DNA of 64,000 bases, taken from assembly GCF_001306175.1 (NCBI RefSeq), contig NZ_LGKN01000006.1, positions 62,001-126,000 on the forward strand, in the 5' to 3' direction. The translations under genes and the position numbers were made by a program. This document shows, piece after piece, positions 3,487-48,681 of this stretch (position 1 is its first letter; every line of letters begins with the position of its first letter). This DNA comes from Ardenticatena maritima. GTDB lineage: Bacteria; Chloroflexota; Anaerolineae; Ardenticatenales; Ardenticatenaceae. Below the pieces are notes generated by a model that made no database searches, had not been told where the DNA came from, and saw only the letters and a program-made list of their open reading frames with translations.

Positions 3487-4746
3487 TCATGGATAAAAAC
3501 CGCGCAGTTTGTATGCGGTCGCCACACGGCTCAGCGCCAGCATGTACGCCGCGACACGCAACGGTACATTGTGTTCCTGCGCCAAGGTATAGACCTGGTC
3601 GAACGCGCGCACCAGAATTTTGCGCAACTGCTGGGTGACCTGTTCATCCGTCCAGAAGAAACTTTGCAGGTCTTGCACCCATTCAAAGTAGGAAACAATC
3701 ACACCGCCGCTGTTGGCGAGAATGTCGGGAATGACGTGGACACCTTTTTCGCGCAAGATGGCGTCGGCGGCAGGCGTGATGGGGGCATTGGCGGCTTCCA
3801 CAATCACACGGGCGCGGATAGTTTCCACATTGTCAGCCGTGATAATGTTTTCGACAGAGGCGGGAACAAGCACGTCACACTCCAGAGCGAGCATGTCAGC
3901 GTGCGAAATAGGCTCACCATGCGGATACCCGACGACTGTTCCCGTTTCTTCCTTGTAGTTGTACAAATCACGGATATCGAACCCATTGGGGTTGTAAATC
4001 GCGCCGCTCCGGTCGCACACGGCAATCACGGTTGAACCGAGGACGTGTTCAAGCATGTACGCTGCTGTGACGCCCACCTTGCCAAAACCATGCACCACCA
4101 CGCGCGCCCCCCGCAAATCCAGCCCAATGCGGTCGGCAAATTCACGCAGAACGAACACCACACCACGCCCCGGCGCACGTCGCCGCCCCGCCGAGCCGCC
4201 AATGACCGGGGGCTTCCCTGTGACGACCGCCGGCACCGAATAGCCCTTGACCATCGAGTACGTGTCCATAATCCACGCCATGACCTGCTCATCTGTGCCG
4301 AGGTCAGGGGCGGGGATATCGCGTTCGGGACCAATCAGCAAAATAATTTCAGTGGTGAAGCGGCGGGTGAGGCGTTCCAGTTCGCCTTTGGAAAGCGTTT
4401 TGGGGTCGCACAACACACCACCTTTAGCGCCGCCAAACGGCAAATTGACGACGGCGGTCTTCCACGTCATCAGCATGGCCAGCCCGCTGGCTTGTTCGAG
4501 GGTCAAGTTGGGGTAGTAGCGCAAGCCCCCTTTGGCGGGACCTCGCACCGTGTTGTGGTGGACGCGGAAGCCGGAGAACATCTTGACGCTTCCATCGTCC
4601 ATCTTGACGGGGAAATGCACATCGAGAATGCGCTGCGGGACATAGAGTTGGTCGCGCACGCCCTGGTCAATCTTCATCAATTCGGCGGCTTCTTCGTAAA
4701 AATGGGTCGCGACTTCTTGCATGGTTGGGCTATCGTTGCCGTTCAC
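3487..4746 (-). CDS. gdhB: NAD(P)-dependent glutamate dehydrogenase, catalytic subunit
   Basis: Interconverts glutamate with 2-oxoglutarate and ammonium. The start is GTG at 4746 with AAGGAGGAG 5 nt before it; a longer open frame to 4920 runs into gatB and is rejected. The product has 419 residues, the usual GDH length. All catalytic residues are present: K72 (GPAKGG), K96 (MTWK), K108 (GGAKGG) and D148 (APDLGT), with the nucleotide motif VHGFGKVG. It is first in an operon with the lysine-less paralogue at 2115-3440. Both end in matching C-terminal segments (YFEWVQDLQSFFW), so they arose by duplication. Another amino acid dehydrogenase (Leu, Phe) is less likely given the length and motifs. 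Confidence 0.93.
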   Translation of the reverse strand: MNGNDSPTMQEVATHFYEEAAELMKIDQGVRDQLYVPQRILDVHFPVKMDDGSVKMFSGFRVHHNTVRGPAKGGLRYYPNLTLEQASGLAMLMTWKTAVVNLPFGGAKGGVLCDPKTLSKGELERLTRRFTTEIILLIGPERDIPAPDLGTDEQVMAWIMDTYSMVKGYSVPAVVTGKPPVIGGSAGRRRAPGRGVVFVLREFADRIGLDLRGARVVVHGFGKVGVTAAYMLEHVLGSTVIAVCDRSGAIYNPNGFDIRDLYNYKEETGTVVGYPHGEPISHADMLALECDVLVPASVENIITADNVETIRARVIVEAANAPITPAADAILREKGVHVIPDILANSGGVIVSYFEWVQDLQSFFWTDEQVTQQLRKILVRAFDQVYTLAQEHNVPLRVAAYMLALSRVATAYKLRGFYP

Positions 4747-42405: not shown

Positions 42406-43676
42406 GCACGCAGGTGCAAAGCCGCATTCGTCTGCAACGACCACCCTGGACGCTCCTGGTGCTGGTGGTGCTTTTTCGGCTGGGGACGCTCCTCTTGCTG
42501 CGCCCCGGCGGCTTTGTGTACGACTTCTCCGATTACGGGTGGTATCGCCAAATGGCGCAGTATTCCAACGAAGGGTTTTACCCCTTCATCCACTACTGGA
42601 TGGAATACCCGCCGCCGTTTCCCTGGCTGAATGTGCTTGTCTATCGGCTCAGTCTCTGGCTGCCCCCCGCGCTGGACGCCCGCCTTTGGCACCACTGGCT
42701 GTTAGGGCTGGCGCTTCTGCCTTTCGACATCGGCATTCTGGCGCTTTTGCACACCCTGGCGCGCGCATTGCACGGGCGCGGCTTTGCGCTTTGGGTGGCA
42801 AGCGTGTACGCCCTGCTCTTCATTCCGCTTTACACATGGGCGGGCTGGTTCGACAGCATGGCGGTTTTCATGCTGCTCCTCGCCGTCTGGCTGATTCTGG
42901 CTGAGCGCCCGGCGTGGGCTGGTTTTGCGTTGGGCGTGGGGTTTTTGGTCAAAGTCTCGCCCATTTTGCCCATCGTGGTCGCTGTGCAACGCTTTCGCCA
43001 GCCTGAACAGGGCTGGCGGGGCTGGGTAAGCCGCGCCAATGTGCGCCTGGTGCTCGCCCTTGCCGCCAGCCTCGCCGCGTTGAGCCTGCCCTGGCTCTGG
43101 CTGAACGCGGACATGTTCCTGGCAACCTTTCGCTCACTTACCGGGCGCTCATCGTGGGAGACCATCTGGGCGTTGCTGTCGGGCTACTTTGGCTACGGCG
43201 TCGTCAGCCCCGAACGGTTTATCCCCGCCCCGCCCCAAGCCATTCACCCCGAACGGGTGCCCGGCGTGCTCATCCTGTTCATCACCGCGCTTTTTGGGTT
43301 CTGGCTCTGGACGCGCCCCCTCGACTGGAAACAGCCGCGTGTGCAAATTGGCTTTCATGCGCTGACGCTTTCCATGTTCTTGCTGGCAAGCCCCGGCTGG
43401 AGCCCGCAATTTCTCACGTGGGTGTTGCCCTGGGTGTTGCTCGTCATGCCCCTGGCGCCTTCACCACACCAACGGCTGACGCCCGCCTGGCACGCTGTTG
43501 GGCTGGCGCTGCTGCTTTCGGTGGTCAACACGCTGGAATGGCTCTATTTTCCTCTGTGGTCGGCGTATCCGCTCGTGCTGGCGCTCATCGTCATCATCCG
43601 CACGGCGGGGCTGGCGTGGCTTGCATGGCACGCCTGGCGGCTCTGCCGGGAAACAACAAGGAGCAGTGTCGCATGA
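42402..43676 (+). CDS. Polytopic membrane glycosyltransferase-like protein
   Basis: A 424-residue integral membrane protein with about ten hydrophobic segments. Its short extracytoplasmic loops include RPGGFVYDFSDYGWYRQMAQ, an acidic region typical of polyprenyl-phosphate-dependent (GT-C) mannosyltransferase-like families. The exact family is not certain. It is joined by ATGA overlaps to the epimerase before it and the next glycosyltransferase after it. Confidence 0.75.
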   Translation: MSTQVQSRIRLQRPPWTLLVLVVLFRLGTLLLLRPGGFVYDFSDYGWYRQMAQYSNEGFYPFIHYWMEYPPPFPWLNVLVYRLSLWLPPALDARLWHHWLLGLALLPFDIGILALLHTLARALHGRGFALWVASVYALLFIPLYTWAGWFDSMAVFMLLLAVWLILAERPAWAGFALGVGFLVKVSPILPIVVAVQRFRQPEQGWRGWVSRANVRLVLALAASLAALSLPWLWLNADMFLATFRSLTGRSSWETIWALLSGYFGYGVVSPERFIPAPPQAIHPERVPGVLILFITALFGFWLWTRPLDWKQPRVQIGFHALTLSMFLLASPGWSPQFLTWVLPWVLLVMPLAPSPHQRLTPAWHAVGLALLLSVVNTLEWLYFPLWSAYPLVLALIVIIRTAGLAWLAWHAWRLCRETTRSSVA

Positions 43677-45900
43677 AGAACCGTGCCACAACCGACGGCC
43701 GTATCGCGCTCCATCTTGCGTTCCTTGTGCTGGCGGCCACCATGTTCTTGTGGAGCGGTCGCCTGCATTCGAGCGATGGCTTTGCCATGTACGCCGTCAA
43801 CGACAGCCTGGTGCGCTATGGGCGCTACGACATCGAACAACTGCACTGGATGGACATCCAGCAAGGCACTTATGGCCGCGGCGGCTGGCTCTATTCGCGC
43901 AAGGGGCTGGGCACCAGCATGGCGGGCTTTCCGCTGACCGTGCTGGGCTTCGTCCTGCCCGGTCTTGGGCCTGTGCAAACATCCCTGCTTCTCGCTCCCC
44001 TGCTGACGGCGCTCAGCGCAGCCTTGCTCTACCTGGCGGCGCGGCGCGCCTTCCCCCATACACCACGCGCCGCCGCCTGGCTTGCCACTGTGGCATGGGC
44101 GCTTGGGAGCGTCGCCTGGCCCTACACGAAAACGTTTTTCAGCGAACCGCTGGTTGCGCTGGCAACCATTGGCGCTTTTGAGCGCCTGCTGGCGCTGCGC
44201 GACCACCCACAGAGTCGCCGCGCTGCGTTCGGCATTGGCGCATGGGTCGGTCTGGGCATTGTGACGCGCTCCGCCCACGCCATTGTTGCGCCCTTTTTTG
44301 CCCTGACGGCGCTCTTCATCACCTGGCCGCGCGACCTTCCCCCTCGCGACATCGTGCGCCGCTGGCGCGCGCTGCCGTGGGGCGTCTGGTTGAGTGCGGC
44401 ATGGCCGCTGATGGTGGCGCTGGGGCTTGTGCTGGGCTACAACTGGGCGCGCTTCGGCAACCCCTTTGAGAGTGGCTACCTTGATTTTGAAACGTTCAGC
44501 GCCAACTGGCTGATTGGCATCAGTGGGCAACTCATTTCGCCGGGGCGCGGGTTGCTCTGGTATGTGCCGTGGCTGGTGCTTCTGCCGCTGGGTGTGCGTG
44601 CGGCATGGCGGCGCGCGCCTGAGGGAACAGGTGTGGCGCTTGGCGTGTTCGCGGCGTATGTCCTGCTCTACGGCAAATGGTACATGTGGAGCGGCGGCTC
44701 GGCGTGGGGTCCGCGTTTTCTCGTGCCCACTGTGCCCTTGCTGGCGTGGCTGTCCACCCCCATCGCCGCGCGCCGCCCCCGGTTGTTGGGGCTGTTTGTC
44801 TTGCTGGGTATCGGCGTGAATGCGGTGGCATGCTGTGGGATTTCGACATCCACGAAGCATGGCTCGCCAATCTGGGCTTTGAACCGTACGCGCTGCCAAC
44901 GTTTTTTGAAGCGCAGTACGCCCAAATCCCCAACATGGTGCGCCTGGGGCTGCACGCCCCGCTCGACGTTGCCTGGGTGCCGACGACGACCATCCACCCG
45001 CCCACCTTGCTCGCGGCAAGTGTGGTCAGCCTGCTGGCGTTCGCCACAGCCGTCGCCAGCCTGGAACGCCCCCGACGGCAAACCGTCGCACTCATCGGGC
45101 TGGTCATCGCCGCCACATGGGGGCTGCTCTGGCAAGCCCACGAAGCCCAATCGCCGCATTACGCCGCGGTGGCGGCAACTATCGAACGCATGCCGTCCGC
45201 GCGCCTGCGCATCTGGCAAGATGGCCCACCCGGCACCGAACTCTTTTTGAACCACTACCGCGGGCGTGCGCCCATTCTGGGCGCCAATGTCGCCGGGAGC
45301 GACCTGCCCGCGCTGGAAGCCACGCGCGTGTTCGATCAAGTGGAAGAGCCGCGCGCCCTCTGGATTGTGAGCGATGGTCCCTCACGGGCGGCCAATGCGC
45401 TCGACAAAGTGGCATCCACGCGCAAAGCGTTTGTTGATGAAATCACCTTCGAGGACGTGCGCGCCACCTTCTACTTCGACAGCGCCACCTGGCACGCAAC
45501 CGACATCAACACGCCCCTGGCGTTGGACGGCCAACCGACCTTGCACCTGCAAACCGTCGCCTTCACCCCCTCTCCCGACCTCGGCATCATCGGCGCGCGT
45601 CTGACATGGCGCGTGCTAGCATCTCCAGGCGAACCTGTGCAAACCTTTGTGCACCTGTTCAACGAACAGGGTGAAAAAGTCGCCCAACATGACGGCGCGG
45701 CGCAAAACGGCTGGCGGTCGGCCGAAACGTGGCAAGTGGGCGACGTGCTGACCGACACGCATGCCATTCGTGTGGCGACACTGCCGCCCGGCACATACAC
45801 CGTGGTGGTGGGCTTCTACCGTCTGCGCGACATCGCGCCCTTGACAACGCCCGACGGCGCGGGTAGCCTCACAGTAGGCACCATCACCATCGCACCCTGA
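43673..45900 (+). pseudogene. Membrane glycosyltransferase-like gene interrupted by a frameshift
   Basis: One gene by homology, split over two frames. Frame one runs from ATG 43673 (ATGA overlap with the previous stop) to about 44830. It encodes an N-terminal helix, a SSDGFAMYAVNDSLVRYGRYD loop and about nine membrane helices ending LFVLLGIGVNAVA. Beyond that the frame is nonsense to 45250. From about 44827 the next frame takes over smoothly (MLWDFDIHEAWLANLGFEPY) and runs to 45900 with a beta-rich C-terminal domain (FVHLFNEQGEKVAQHDG). One base missing near 44820-44832 explains it: a sequencing error, a real lesion, or phase variation. No slippery heptamer is evident. Confidence 0.7.
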
Positions 45901-45933: not shown

Positions 45934-46311
45934 ATGACGCACCCGCTCACACCCGAACAACTGGCGCGCTACCGCGAAACGTACCGCAAGCGGCGCGAAG
46001 CGCGCGCCCGCGCGCTGGCGGCGCGGCGCGAGCAGGCGTGGGCTGAGGCGCGGAAGGCGGCGCGCCTGCTCAAAGAAGAATTTGGCGCGCAACGAGTCGT
46101 GCTCTTCGGCTCGCTGGTACGTGAGGGTGGCCGCTTCTTCGATGAACGCTCCGACATTGACCTAGCGGTGTGGGGTCTTGCGCCGGAGCACTTTTTTGAC
46201 GCTTGGGCGGCGGTTGAGCGGGCGACAAGCCAGCCTTTCGATTTGGTGGACGGGGCTCACGCTTCCGCCAGTCTGCTTGAAGTGATTGAAGCCGAAGGGG
46301 TGGCATTGTGA
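45934..46311 (+). CDS. MNT-type minimal nucleotidyltransferase, copy 1
   Basis: A 125-residue protein. An N-terminal basic helix (about 1-45; RKRREARARALAARREQAW) precedes the MNT fold with the nucleotidyltransferase motif FGSLVREG...SDIDLAVWG (GS and the D-x-D pair). Such proteins are antitoxins of MNT/HEPN toxin pairs, often AMPylating the HEPN toxin. ATG 45934 follows AAGGGGC. Its first 224 coding bases are almost identical to copy 2. The partner downstream is only a 32-codon remnant. Confidence 0.85.
   Translation: MTHPLTPEQLARYRETYRKRREARARALAARREQAWAEARKAARLLKEEFGAQRVVLFGSLVREGGRFFDERSDIDLAVWGLAPEHFFDAWAAVERATSQPFDLVDGAHASASLLEVIEAEGVAL
45952..46175 (+). repeat. Near-identical direct repeat, copy 1
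   Basis: A 224-bp segment repeats at 46421-46644 with about four mismatches. It covers the N-terminal helix and catalytic motif of the two MNT genes. Sequence identity ends abruptly on both sides: C-terminal parts of the genes differ. Confidence 0.9.
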
Positions 46312-46406
46312 CCTACGTAGCCTTGGCGGCACGCCTGCAACGTGAACTGGCCGATTTGGCCCGTGTGGTAGAACGGGTGCAGATACACTTCGGCGAAACA
46401 CCATGA
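46308..46406 (+). pseudogene. 32-codon micro-ORF, probable HEPN/HepT toxin remnant
   Basis: Starts at GTG 46308, overlapping the MNT stop (GTGA), and ends at 46406, overlapping the next ATG (ATGA). The peptide (MTYVALAARLQRELADLARVV...) resembles the first helix of HepT-type HEPN toxins that normally follow such MNT genes, but stops after one helix. It lacks the Rx4-6H catalytic motif. It may be non-functional, or a small coiled-coil protein in its own right. Confidence 0.45.
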
Positions 46407-46783
46407 GCCACCACATCTCTCCCGAACAACTGGCGCGCTACCGCGAAACGCACCGCAAGCGGCGCGAAGCGCGCGCCCGCGCGCTGGCGGCACGGCGCGA
46501 GCAGGCGTGGGCTGAGGCGCGGAAGGCGGCGCGCCTGCTCAAAGAAGAATTTGGCGCGCAACGAGTCGTGCTCTTCGGCTCGCTGGTACGTGAGGGTGGC
46601 CGCTTCTTCGATGAGCGCTCCGACATTGACCTGGCGGTGTGGGGCATGGGCTGGCGTGATCTGCTCCGCGCATGGAGCCGCCTCAACGCGTCCCCCTTCA
46701 CCTTTGCTTTTGATGTCATGCTCATTGAAGACGCGCGTCCCTCGTTGCGCGAGCGTATCGAACACGAGGGGGTGAACCTATGA
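46403..46783 (+). CDS. MNT-type minimal nucleotidyltransferase, copy 2
   Basis: A 126-residue paralogue of copy 1. The N-terminal helix and motif FGSLVREG...SDIDLAVWG are virtually the same, while the C-terminal third (GWRDLLRAWSRLNASPF...) is unrelated. Differing C-terminal halves suggest different partners. The start and stop both overlap neighbouring short frames by 4 bp, so translation is chained. Confidence 0.85.
   Translation: MSHHISPEQLARYRETHRKRREARARALAARREQAWAEARKAARLLKEEFGAQRVVLFGSLVREGGRFFDERSDIDLAVWGMGWRDLLRAWSRLNASPFTFAFDVMLIEDARPSLRERIEHEGVNL
46421..46644 (+). repeat. Near-identical direct repeat, copy 2
   Basis: Second copy of the 224-bp repeat, offset 469 bp from the first. 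Confidence 0.9.
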
Positions 46784-46836
46784 CCGGGACGCTGCTTTTC
46801 AACATTGACCGCTCTCGACGAGGAGAACGCGCATGA
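46780..46836 (+). other. 18-codon micro-ORF between MNT copy 2 and threonine synthase
   Basis: The frame MTGTLLFNIDRSRRGERA overlaps the MNT stop (ATGA) and ends with a TGA overlapping the ATG of the threonine synthase gene. No similarity to HEPN proteins is seen. It may be a translational bridge or chance. Confidence 0.3.
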
Positions 46837-48122
46837 CGCATAAGCCCCTACCAGCGCCGACCGCTTACGACGCCATCACCGCCCTGCGCTGCCTCATCTG
46901 CGGCGCGGAATACGCCCCCGGCGAGGTGCGCTATGTCTGCCCGCACCACGGCACCGAAGGCATCCTCGATGTGGTGTACGACTACGCCGCCATCGCCGCC
47001 CACACCGACCGCGACGCTCTGACGGCAAACCACCGCCGCGACATGTGGCGCTATCTGCCACTGCTTCCCATTGCCGAGCCGCGTTTCATCCCCCCGCTTG
47101 ACGTGGGATGGACGCCGCTCTACCACGCCCCACGCCTGGGCGCCCTGCTCGGCCTCCCCAACCTTTGGGTGAAGGACGATGGGCGCAATCCCACCGCCTC
47201 GTTCAAAGACCGCGCCAGCGCGCTGGCGGTTGTCAAAGCCCAGGAAGCCAACGCGCGCACCATCACCACCGCCAGCAGCGGGAACGCCGCCGCCGCCTTG
47301 GCGGGCATGGCCGCCGGGGTTGGGCTGGAAAGCGTGATTTTTGTGCCGGCCAGCGCCCCGCAAGCCAAAATTGCGCAACTGCTCATCTACGGCGCGACGG
47401 TTGTGCTCGTTGAAGGCACCTACGACCAGGCGTTCGACCTCTGCATTGCAGCCGCCAACCAGCAGGGGTGGTACTGCCGCAACACCGCCTACAACCCTTA
47501 CATGACCGAAGGCAAGAAAACCGCCGCCTACGAAATCGCCGAGCAGATGGGCTGGGAAGCGCCCGACCGTGTGTTCGTGGCGGTTGGCGATGGCTGTATC
47601 ATCGGGGGGCTGCACAAAGGCTTTGCCGATTTGCACGCGCTCGGCTGGATTGAGCGCATGCCCCGCCTGATGGGTGTGCAGGCGGAAGGTAGCGCCGTGC
47701 TCTACGAGGCGTGGCGGCGCGGCGTGAACGAGATTCGCCCGATTGTGCCCCACACGATTGCCGACAGCATCAGCGTGGGCGTCCCGCGCGACCGCCTGAA
47801 AGCCCTGCGCGCTGTGCGCCAGACGGACGGCGCGTTTGTCGTCGTCTCCGATGAGGAGATTTTGGCCGCCATGCGCGACCTCGCCCGCCTGACGGGTGTT
47901 TTCGCCGAGCCGGCGGCGGCCGCGGCGGTTGCAGGGGTGCGCCGCGCTCTGGCTGACGGGCAGGTGGGGCGCGATGAGCGCGTGGTGGTTGTCATCACCG
48001 GCAACGGGCTGAAAGACATCCCCGCCGCCATGCGTGCGGTTGAAGGCGAGGGCAAAGCGGTGCGCCTGCCACCGACGGTGGACGCGCTGATGGCGTGGTT
48101 GCATGTTCAAGAGAAAGACTAA
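46833..48122 (+). CDS. thrC: Threonine synthase-like PLP enzyme
   Basis: Fold-type II enzyme of the threonine synthase family, which converts O-phosphohomoserine to threonine. The 429-residue product has an N-terminal zinc ribbon-like region (CLIC...CPHH), the PLP lysine K125 in NPTASFKDRAS, the SSGNAAAALAG phosphate-site motif and VAVGDGCIIGGLHKGF. It matches the ThrC subgroup found in Chloroflexota and archaea. Threonine dehydratase-like activity cannot be excluded. CGAGGAG precedes ATG 46833. It stands between MNT genes 2 and 3. Confidence 0.85.
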   Translation: MTHKPLPAPTAYDAITALRCLICGAEYAPGEVRYVCPHHGTEGILDVVYDYAAIAAHTDRDALTANHRRDMWRYLPLLPIAEPRFIPPLDVGWTPLYHAPRLGALLGLPNLWVKDDGRNPTASFKDRASALAVVKAQEANARTITTASSGNAAAALAGMAAGVGLESVIFVPASAPQAKIAQLLIYGATVVLVEGTYDQAFDLCIAAANQQGWYCRNTAYNPYMTEGKKTAAYEIAEQMGWEAPDRVFVAVGDGCIIGGLHKGFADLHALGWIERMPRLMGVQAEGSAVLYEAWRRGVNEIRPIVPHTIADSISVGVPRDRLKALRAVRQTDGAFVVVSDEEILAAMRDLARLTGVFAEPAAAAAVAGVRRALADGQVGRDERVVVVITGNGLKDIPAAMRAVEGEGKAVRLPPTVDALMAWLHVQEKD

Positions 48123-48134
48123 CACGCGAAACGT

Positions 48135-48629
48135 ATGCACTCACCGAAAGGCGAGCCACCTTCGGGCACAAACCAATCTCACTATGACGACCAACTCGCA
48201 GCGCTAGCGGCCCGCTACGACCTTATCGCCATCTACGCGTTCGGCAGCCGCGCCAAAGAAGCCGCTGCGGTGGTGCGCGGCGAACAGGCGCGCCTTTCCC
48301 GCGACACACCGTCCGACCTGGATATTGGCGTTGTGCCGCGTATGGGGCGGCGGCTCTCGCTGGACGAAAAAGTCAAACTGGCGCTGGCACTGGAAGACCT
48401 GTTCGACGTGCCGCGCGTGGACCTCGTCGTTGCGCCCGACGTCTCCATCTGGCTGGCGGTGGACATTGTGCACGGCGAGTTGCTCTACACGCCCGACCCG
48501 GTCGCCGAAGCCGAATACCAGCTCTATGTGCTGGCGCGTGCGAACGACCTCTATCCGTGGTCTCGCGAAGCCATTGAAGCGTTCAAACGAGAAGGCATTT
48601 TTGGGAAGAAAAACGATGACGCCCGGTAA
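48135..48629 (+). CDS. MNT-type nucleotidyltransferase, third gene
   Basis: A 164-residue MNT-fold protein unlike copies 1 and 2. Motif IYAFGSRAKEAA precedes SDLDIGVV (D-x-D), with a long insert (VVRGEQARLSRDTP). The C-terminal end (ELLYTPDPVAEAEYQLYVLAR) is typical of antitoxins with DUF86 HEPN partners. Here the partner is cut to 21 codons. No good ribosome site precedes ATG 48135; coupling to thrC, 13 bp upstream, is likely. Confidence 0.85.
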   Translation: MHSPKGEPPSGTNQSHYDDQLAALAARYDLIAIYAFGSRAKEAAAVVRGEQARLSRDTPSDLDIGVVPRMGRRLSLDEKVKLALALEDLFDVPRVDLVVAPDVSIWLAVDIVHGELLYTPDPVAEAEYQLYVLARANDLYPWSREAIEAFKREGIFGKKNDDAR

Positions 48630-48681
48630 GATTCAGGCCAAAATTGTGCGCGAACGCTTGCTGTGGATTGCCGACATGTAA
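48616..48681 (+). pseudogene. 21-codon DUF86/HepT remnant
   Basis: An ATG overlapping the MNT 3' end by 14 bp starts MTPGKIQAKIVRERLLWIA, the typical first helix of HepT-type HEPN toxins, and stops at TAA 48681. The rest (including the Rx4HxY region) is missing, and the next gene's ribosome site follows directly. Confidence 0.55.

Follow-up and report, generated by a model that had tools for sequence, protein, structure and literature searches.

Three genes encoding MntA-like minimal nucleotidyltransferases (MNT), each overlapping at its end with a downstream micro-ORF (32, 18 and 21 codons, respectively), occupy positions 45934-48681 of the window, that is, the whole 64,000-nucleotide stretch of the Ardenticatena maritima genome analyzed here, from a heat-loving Chloroflexota bacterium. 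With a probability that we place at roughly 0.85, the locus represents a set of disarmed type VII (HEPN/MNT) toxin-antitoxin modules, the toxins of which were lost first and the orphan MNTs of which persist as relics. Two relatives of the source genome (G000; 3.56 Mb, 12 contigs) serve as the principal comparisons, namely G001 (Ardenticatena sp. isolate S012_161, a member of the same genus) and G004 (an Ardenticatenaceae metagenome genome). The features of the locus, with the basis of each assignment, are as follows.

45934..46311, + strand: MNT1, putative orphaned antitoxin, MntA-like, 125 aa, GSx13DxD (PF18765 and alignment to G001)
46308..46406, + strand: stub1, 32 aa, GTG start (alignment to intact HepT1 of G001)
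46403..46783, + strand: MNT2, tandem paralogue of MNT1 (PF18765, alignment, within-genome comparison)
46780..46836, + strand: stub2, 18 aa (comparison with HepT2 of G001; middle piece assigned by eye)
46833..48122, + strand: threonine synthase-like gene (ORF and synteny; family named from sequence by eye)
48135..48629, + strand: MNT3, second MNT type, GSx22DxD, start uncertain (PF18765, NCBIfam MntA model, start alignment)
48616..48681, + strand: stub3, 21 aa (alignment to intact HepT3 of G001)

All three MNT proteins match the PF18765 (Polbeta) profile above its cut-off (MNT1, 2e-7; MNT2, 6e-7; MNT3, 3e-7), and score 30, 24, and 48 bits, respectively, with the NCBIfam MntA antitoxin model, in each case below its cut-off of 60; their fold is not in question. 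The GS..DxD residues are present throughout, with spacings (GSx13DxD in MNT1 and MNT2, GSx22DxD in MNT3) that are common to the intact modules of sister genomes; MNT1 is 81% identical to its G001 counterpart, and MNT3 is 84% identical to those of G001 and G004. Four-base overlaps (GTGA/ATGA) occur at four junctions (46308, 46403, 46780, and 46833), while the overlap between MNT3 and stub3 extends over 14 bases, from the ATG at 48616 to the end of the MNT3 stop codon at 48629. A threonine synthase-like gene separates the second module from MNT3 in the window as well as in G001, where a gene for a 402-aa coiled-coil repeat protein, missing from the window, additionally lies between the threonine synthase-like gene and MNT3 (L053 6721-7929).

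The key to the nature of the micro-ORFs is found in G001, which displays the same gene order and encodes a complete HepT at all three stub positions: HepT1 (159 aa; L053 4011-4490) and HepT2 (163 aa; L053 4864-5355), each matching PF20797 at ~1e-34, and HepT3 (152 aa; L053 8394-8852), which matches PF01934 at 8e-21 and exceeds the cut-off of the NCBIfam HepT model. In G004, HepT1 and HepT3 are intact and the HepT2 site would fall past the end of the contig. Thus, the pairing that defines a HEPN/MNT module, an MNT gene adjacent to a full-length HEPN gene, exists in G001 and G004, while only stubs accompany the MNT genes of the window; at the same sites, toxins that are intact in close relatives are broken here, and the antitoxin frames remain open. 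What the window retains is a remnant rather than a working module. The HEPN RNase motif RX4HXY has been deleted from the window altogether. It is found in HepT3 of G001, as RNRLTHFY, and is not present in exact form in HepT1 or HepT2 of that genome, which carry FRHVIRNVY instead.

Comparison of the stubs with these genes suggests how each toxin was lost. DNA and protein alignments to the full-length counterparts in G001 and G004 identify stub1 and stub3 as HepT N-termini. Specifically, stub1 consists of about the first 25 codons of a HepT1 gene of the PF20797 type fused in frame to its last few codons; relative to G001, 381 bp are gone, GTGC is found at both break points, and the in-frame deletion preserves the overlap with MNT2. 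Stub3 retains the first 21 codons of a HepT3 gene of the PF01934 type and terminates where the two ends meet; the gap amounts to about 399 bp, and the remnant is joined to bases located just 5' of the ribosome-binding site of the next gene. Stub2 has the first six codons (MTGTLL) in common with HepT2 of G001, followed by a short FNID.. piece that by eye resembles the C-terminal FN(L/I)D stretch and then by the leader of the threonine synthase-like gene, a composite structure for which more than one event was probably responsible. Taken together, these alignments show each micro-ORF to be the 5' end of a HepT gene, left behind by large internal deletions.

A preliminary description of this DNA had reported the three MNT genes with micro-ORFs of 18-32 codons and several 4-bp overlaps, all of which are present (the overlaps at the four junctions given above), and had likened two of the micro-ORFs to HepT starts, which holds for stub1 and stub3; the likeness of stub2 to the start of HepT2 had not been claimed. 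The overall picture that it drew is correct and goes beyond chance. Its proposal that the HEPN partners are eroded is strongly supported by the intact G001 genes, and the search for full toxins in sister genomes that it recommended yielded three in G001 and two in G004. Short forms common to relatives, which it had named as evidence against erosion, were not found. In the profile search of the micro-ORFs that it also proposed, Pfam and NCBIfam profiles yielded no matches to the stubs, which are too short, and the likeness to HepT emerged from alignment. Finally, intact MNT/HEPN loci, for which it advised looking elsewhere in the genome, are absent: neither a further MNT nor any HepT/HEPN gene scores above cut-off.

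The last of these results derives from a genome-wide inventory. With PF18765, the three MNTs of this locus are the only ones in the genome above cut-off (an earlier search with PF01909 had missed them), and searches of the genome with PF01934, PF20797, and PF05168 returned nothing above cut-off. Queries with the HepT1 and HepT3 proteins of G001 recovered stub3 only (HepT3 query, E 2.8e-6). All HepT toxins of this genome are therefore gone, and all of its MNTs are kept. No second assembly of the same species was found in the scan for related loci.

These observations suggest the following course of events. Three HEPN/MNT (type VII, MntA-HepT) modules were originally present at the locus, and internal deletions in this lineage removed each presumed RNase toxin apart from its opening 6-25 codons; the frame of the adenylyltransferase antitoxin upstream was not interrupted. 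In an intact module, MntA adenylylates HepT and thereby silences it (PMC7641770). Loss of the toxin would cost the cell nothing, and decay is expected to begin with the toxin because a cell deprived of the antitoxin in the presence of active toxin would die or cease to grow. The orphan MNTs would now be relics, perhaps still expressed, with no known substrate in the genome, and would be expected to decay in turn. MNT3 may already have begun to do so: a 4-base difference near its start places the ATG at 48184, which matches the G004 start, out of frame, and the sole in-frame upstream start, the ATG at 48135, is without an obvious ribosome-binding site. The ancestral start codon of the gene is thus no longer in frame.

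A wider survey, in which MNT and HepT matches from 60 relatives (61 genomes with G000) were paired by position and loci were scored with profiles built from intact copies, revealed the same direction of decay. In 14 of 40 full-length MNT1-type genes, two of them in G000, the HepT is broken or missing; a further 25 are accompanied by an intact HepT, and for the remaining one a contig end prevents a verdict. The broken loci vary: some retain an N-terminal stub, between 14 and about 100 codons long, others have internal deletions or frameshifts, and in others nothing is left. Sequence errors could account for some of the frameshifts, those in draft metagenome genomes, but not for the large deletions. 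In the MNT tree the orphans do not cluster, a distribution that implies about a dozen separate toxin losses. Three MNT3-type loci (in G029, G053, and G042) display the same decay. The reverse case, an intact HepT without an MNT, was not found in the 61 genomes. Three candidates for it were considered: a divergent MNT proved to be present in G044, the match in G050 was short and due to chance, and the locus on contig 363 of G004, which is cut by the contig end, was set aside. Elsewhere in G044, on contig 187 (L100 706-1487), two tandem MNTs precede one HepT, and the first of these, which is among the 14, has neither its own toxin nor a stub and may be a duplicate that never had a toxin. In G016 (L087 678-1390) and G051 (L105), a stretch has been cleanly deleted from within the N-terminal third of the HepT, with its C-terminal half intact, while a sister species has the full gene; the shortened form is possibly a minimal or inactive HepT.

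The timing of toxin loss bears directly upon how the orphan antitoxins should be interpreted. Relative to G001, MNT dN/dS is 0.08-0.13 (0.13 for MNT1), and that of the flanking threonine synthase-type genes is 0.10-0.12. Relative to G004, however, the stub codons also retain a pattern of purifying selection (stub1, pN 0.11 and pS 0.52; stub3, pN 0.03 and pS 0.48) even though toxin function is gone, and the deletions consequently look recent, having occurred late on the branch, an approximate estimate given the small counts. Because the stub codons are constrained as strongly as the MNTs, or almost so, a reading of selection on the orphan MNTs from dN/dS was rejected as uninformative; the low values mostly reflect the time before toxin loss, and open antitoxin frames do not prove a new function. 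Across the class, the terminal branches of orphan and paired MNTs do not differ (p 0.94), which fits recent losses. In G016 and G051, the only pair of sister genomes that may share a toxin loss, a sharing that is itself presumed, the orphan MNT has accumulated 8 nonsynonymous and 6 synonymous changes as compared to 4 nonsynonymous and 22 synonymous changes in its neighbor (Fisher p 0.011), a difference that points to relaxed constraint.

Several observations do sit uneasily with neutral decay. Three toxins belonging to two HepT families were lost on one branch with all MNTs kept, a more coordinated outcome than neutral decay by itself suggests; MNT dN/dS equals that of the neighboring threonine synthase-type genes; and the terminal branches of orphan MNTs are no longer than those of paired ones. 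It is conceivable, if unlikely, that the orphans are kept by selection, either because they neutralize, as anti-addiction antitoxins, HepT toxins that arrive on plasmids or other mobile elements, or because they adenylylate a different target in the cell. Such retention would be in keeping with the low MNT dN/dS, with the anti-addiction roles proposed for orphan antitoxins in Klebsiella (PMC7192599) and E. coli (PMC10790755), and with the intact catalytic motifs of all three MNTs and of 14 of 14 orphan MNT1-type genes, a tally in which only recognizable genes could be detected. A low dN/dS nevertheless says nothing about the time since deletions that look recent, the start frame of MNT3 has been lost, and the orphan MNT of G016 and G051 appears relaxed; the suggestion of the preliminary description that the orphans could confer protection from related toxins or have a new role accordingly found no support. 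Should it nonetheless prove correct, improbable as we judge it, that every HepT was purged and that the MNTs are selected as stand-alone adenylyltransferases, immunizing the cell against HepT toxins of incoming mobile elements or modifying another target, the repeated disappearance of toxins in this class would describe a recurring path from addiction module to immunity gene.

That the toxins disappeared only in the assembly or in culture, and that the wild strain has them in full, seems highly unlikely to us. In favor of an artefact, three toxins are gone at once in G000, which is probably an isolate, while the intact toxins come from relatives known as metagenome genomes. Against it, the break points lie in unique sequence with a repeat of at most 4 bases, unusual for an assembly fault; genomes unrelated to this one have comparable deletions; and stub2 appears to have arisen in multiple steps. 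Hardly credible is the notion that the micro-ORFs encode small peptides with a function, as mini-partners for the MNTs, rather than being remains. Though they begin inside the ends of MNT genes and keep coding-like constraint, and though stub1 was deleted in frame with its overlap with MNT2 retained, they are found in no relative with intact modules, other broken loci end elsewhere (at 14 to about 100 aa, or in frameshifts), and a recent past as HepT N-termini fully explains the constraint on the stubs.

Toxin-first decay of type VII modules, the reading favored here, can be set beside characterized systems. The HepT/MntA pair of Shewanella oneidensis (SO_3166/SO_3165; PMC7641770) has the same MNT-then-HEPN order, a short overlap, and an MntA-like antitoxin, and HepT3 of G001, like its toxin, is a PF01934 protein with RX4HXY. 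The two differ in that the toxin is deleted in the window, that the motif is GSX10DXD rather than the GSx13DxD and GSx22DxD of the window MNTs, and that the toxins of modules 1 and 2 belong to PF20797 (HepT-like_2) rather than PF01934. Orphan antitoxins of Klebsiella (PMC7192599) and E. coli (PMC10790755), described in surveys mainly of type II systems, resemble the present case in that the antitoxin is open and the toxin has been lost at the same site; here, in contrast, the whole HEPN/MNT class of one genome is disarmed and the toxin stubs can still be read. Both orphan antitoxins of degraded pairs (PMC7192599, PMC10790755) and MntA chemistry (PMC7641770) are already known, and the kind of decay is ordinary; the unusual aspect is the disarming of every module in a single genome, together with the existence of intact sister copies for comparison. 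The locus thereby offers an unusually clear case of toxin-first decay caught early, with three modules, intact sister sites, and stubs that serve as an internal clock, to which the class-wide count (14 of 40 antitoxins disarmed and no reverse case) adds, and it provides a testable set of orphan MntA antitoxins with which to distinguish relics from protection against related toxins.

Two further observations concern the locus and its surroundings. MNT1 and MNT2 are nearly identical over their N-terminal ~80 codons and 33% identical in their C-terminal parts (33-38% across G000 and G001). Over the N-terminal ~76 codons (window 45955-46175 and 46424-46645; L053 of G001, 3655-3880 and 4505-4730), the two copies differ at 7 nucleotides within G000 and at 3 within G001, as compared to 33-35 between the genomes, a pattern indicative of concerted evolution (gene conversion) restricted to the catalytic half. 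Upstream of MNT1 (window 43600-45900) lies a membrane protein gene that forms a single 742-aa frame in G001 and is split here, by a single-base difference near 44818-44830, into ORFs 43154-45250 and 44677-45900, reflecting either decay of a second gene or an error in the sequence.
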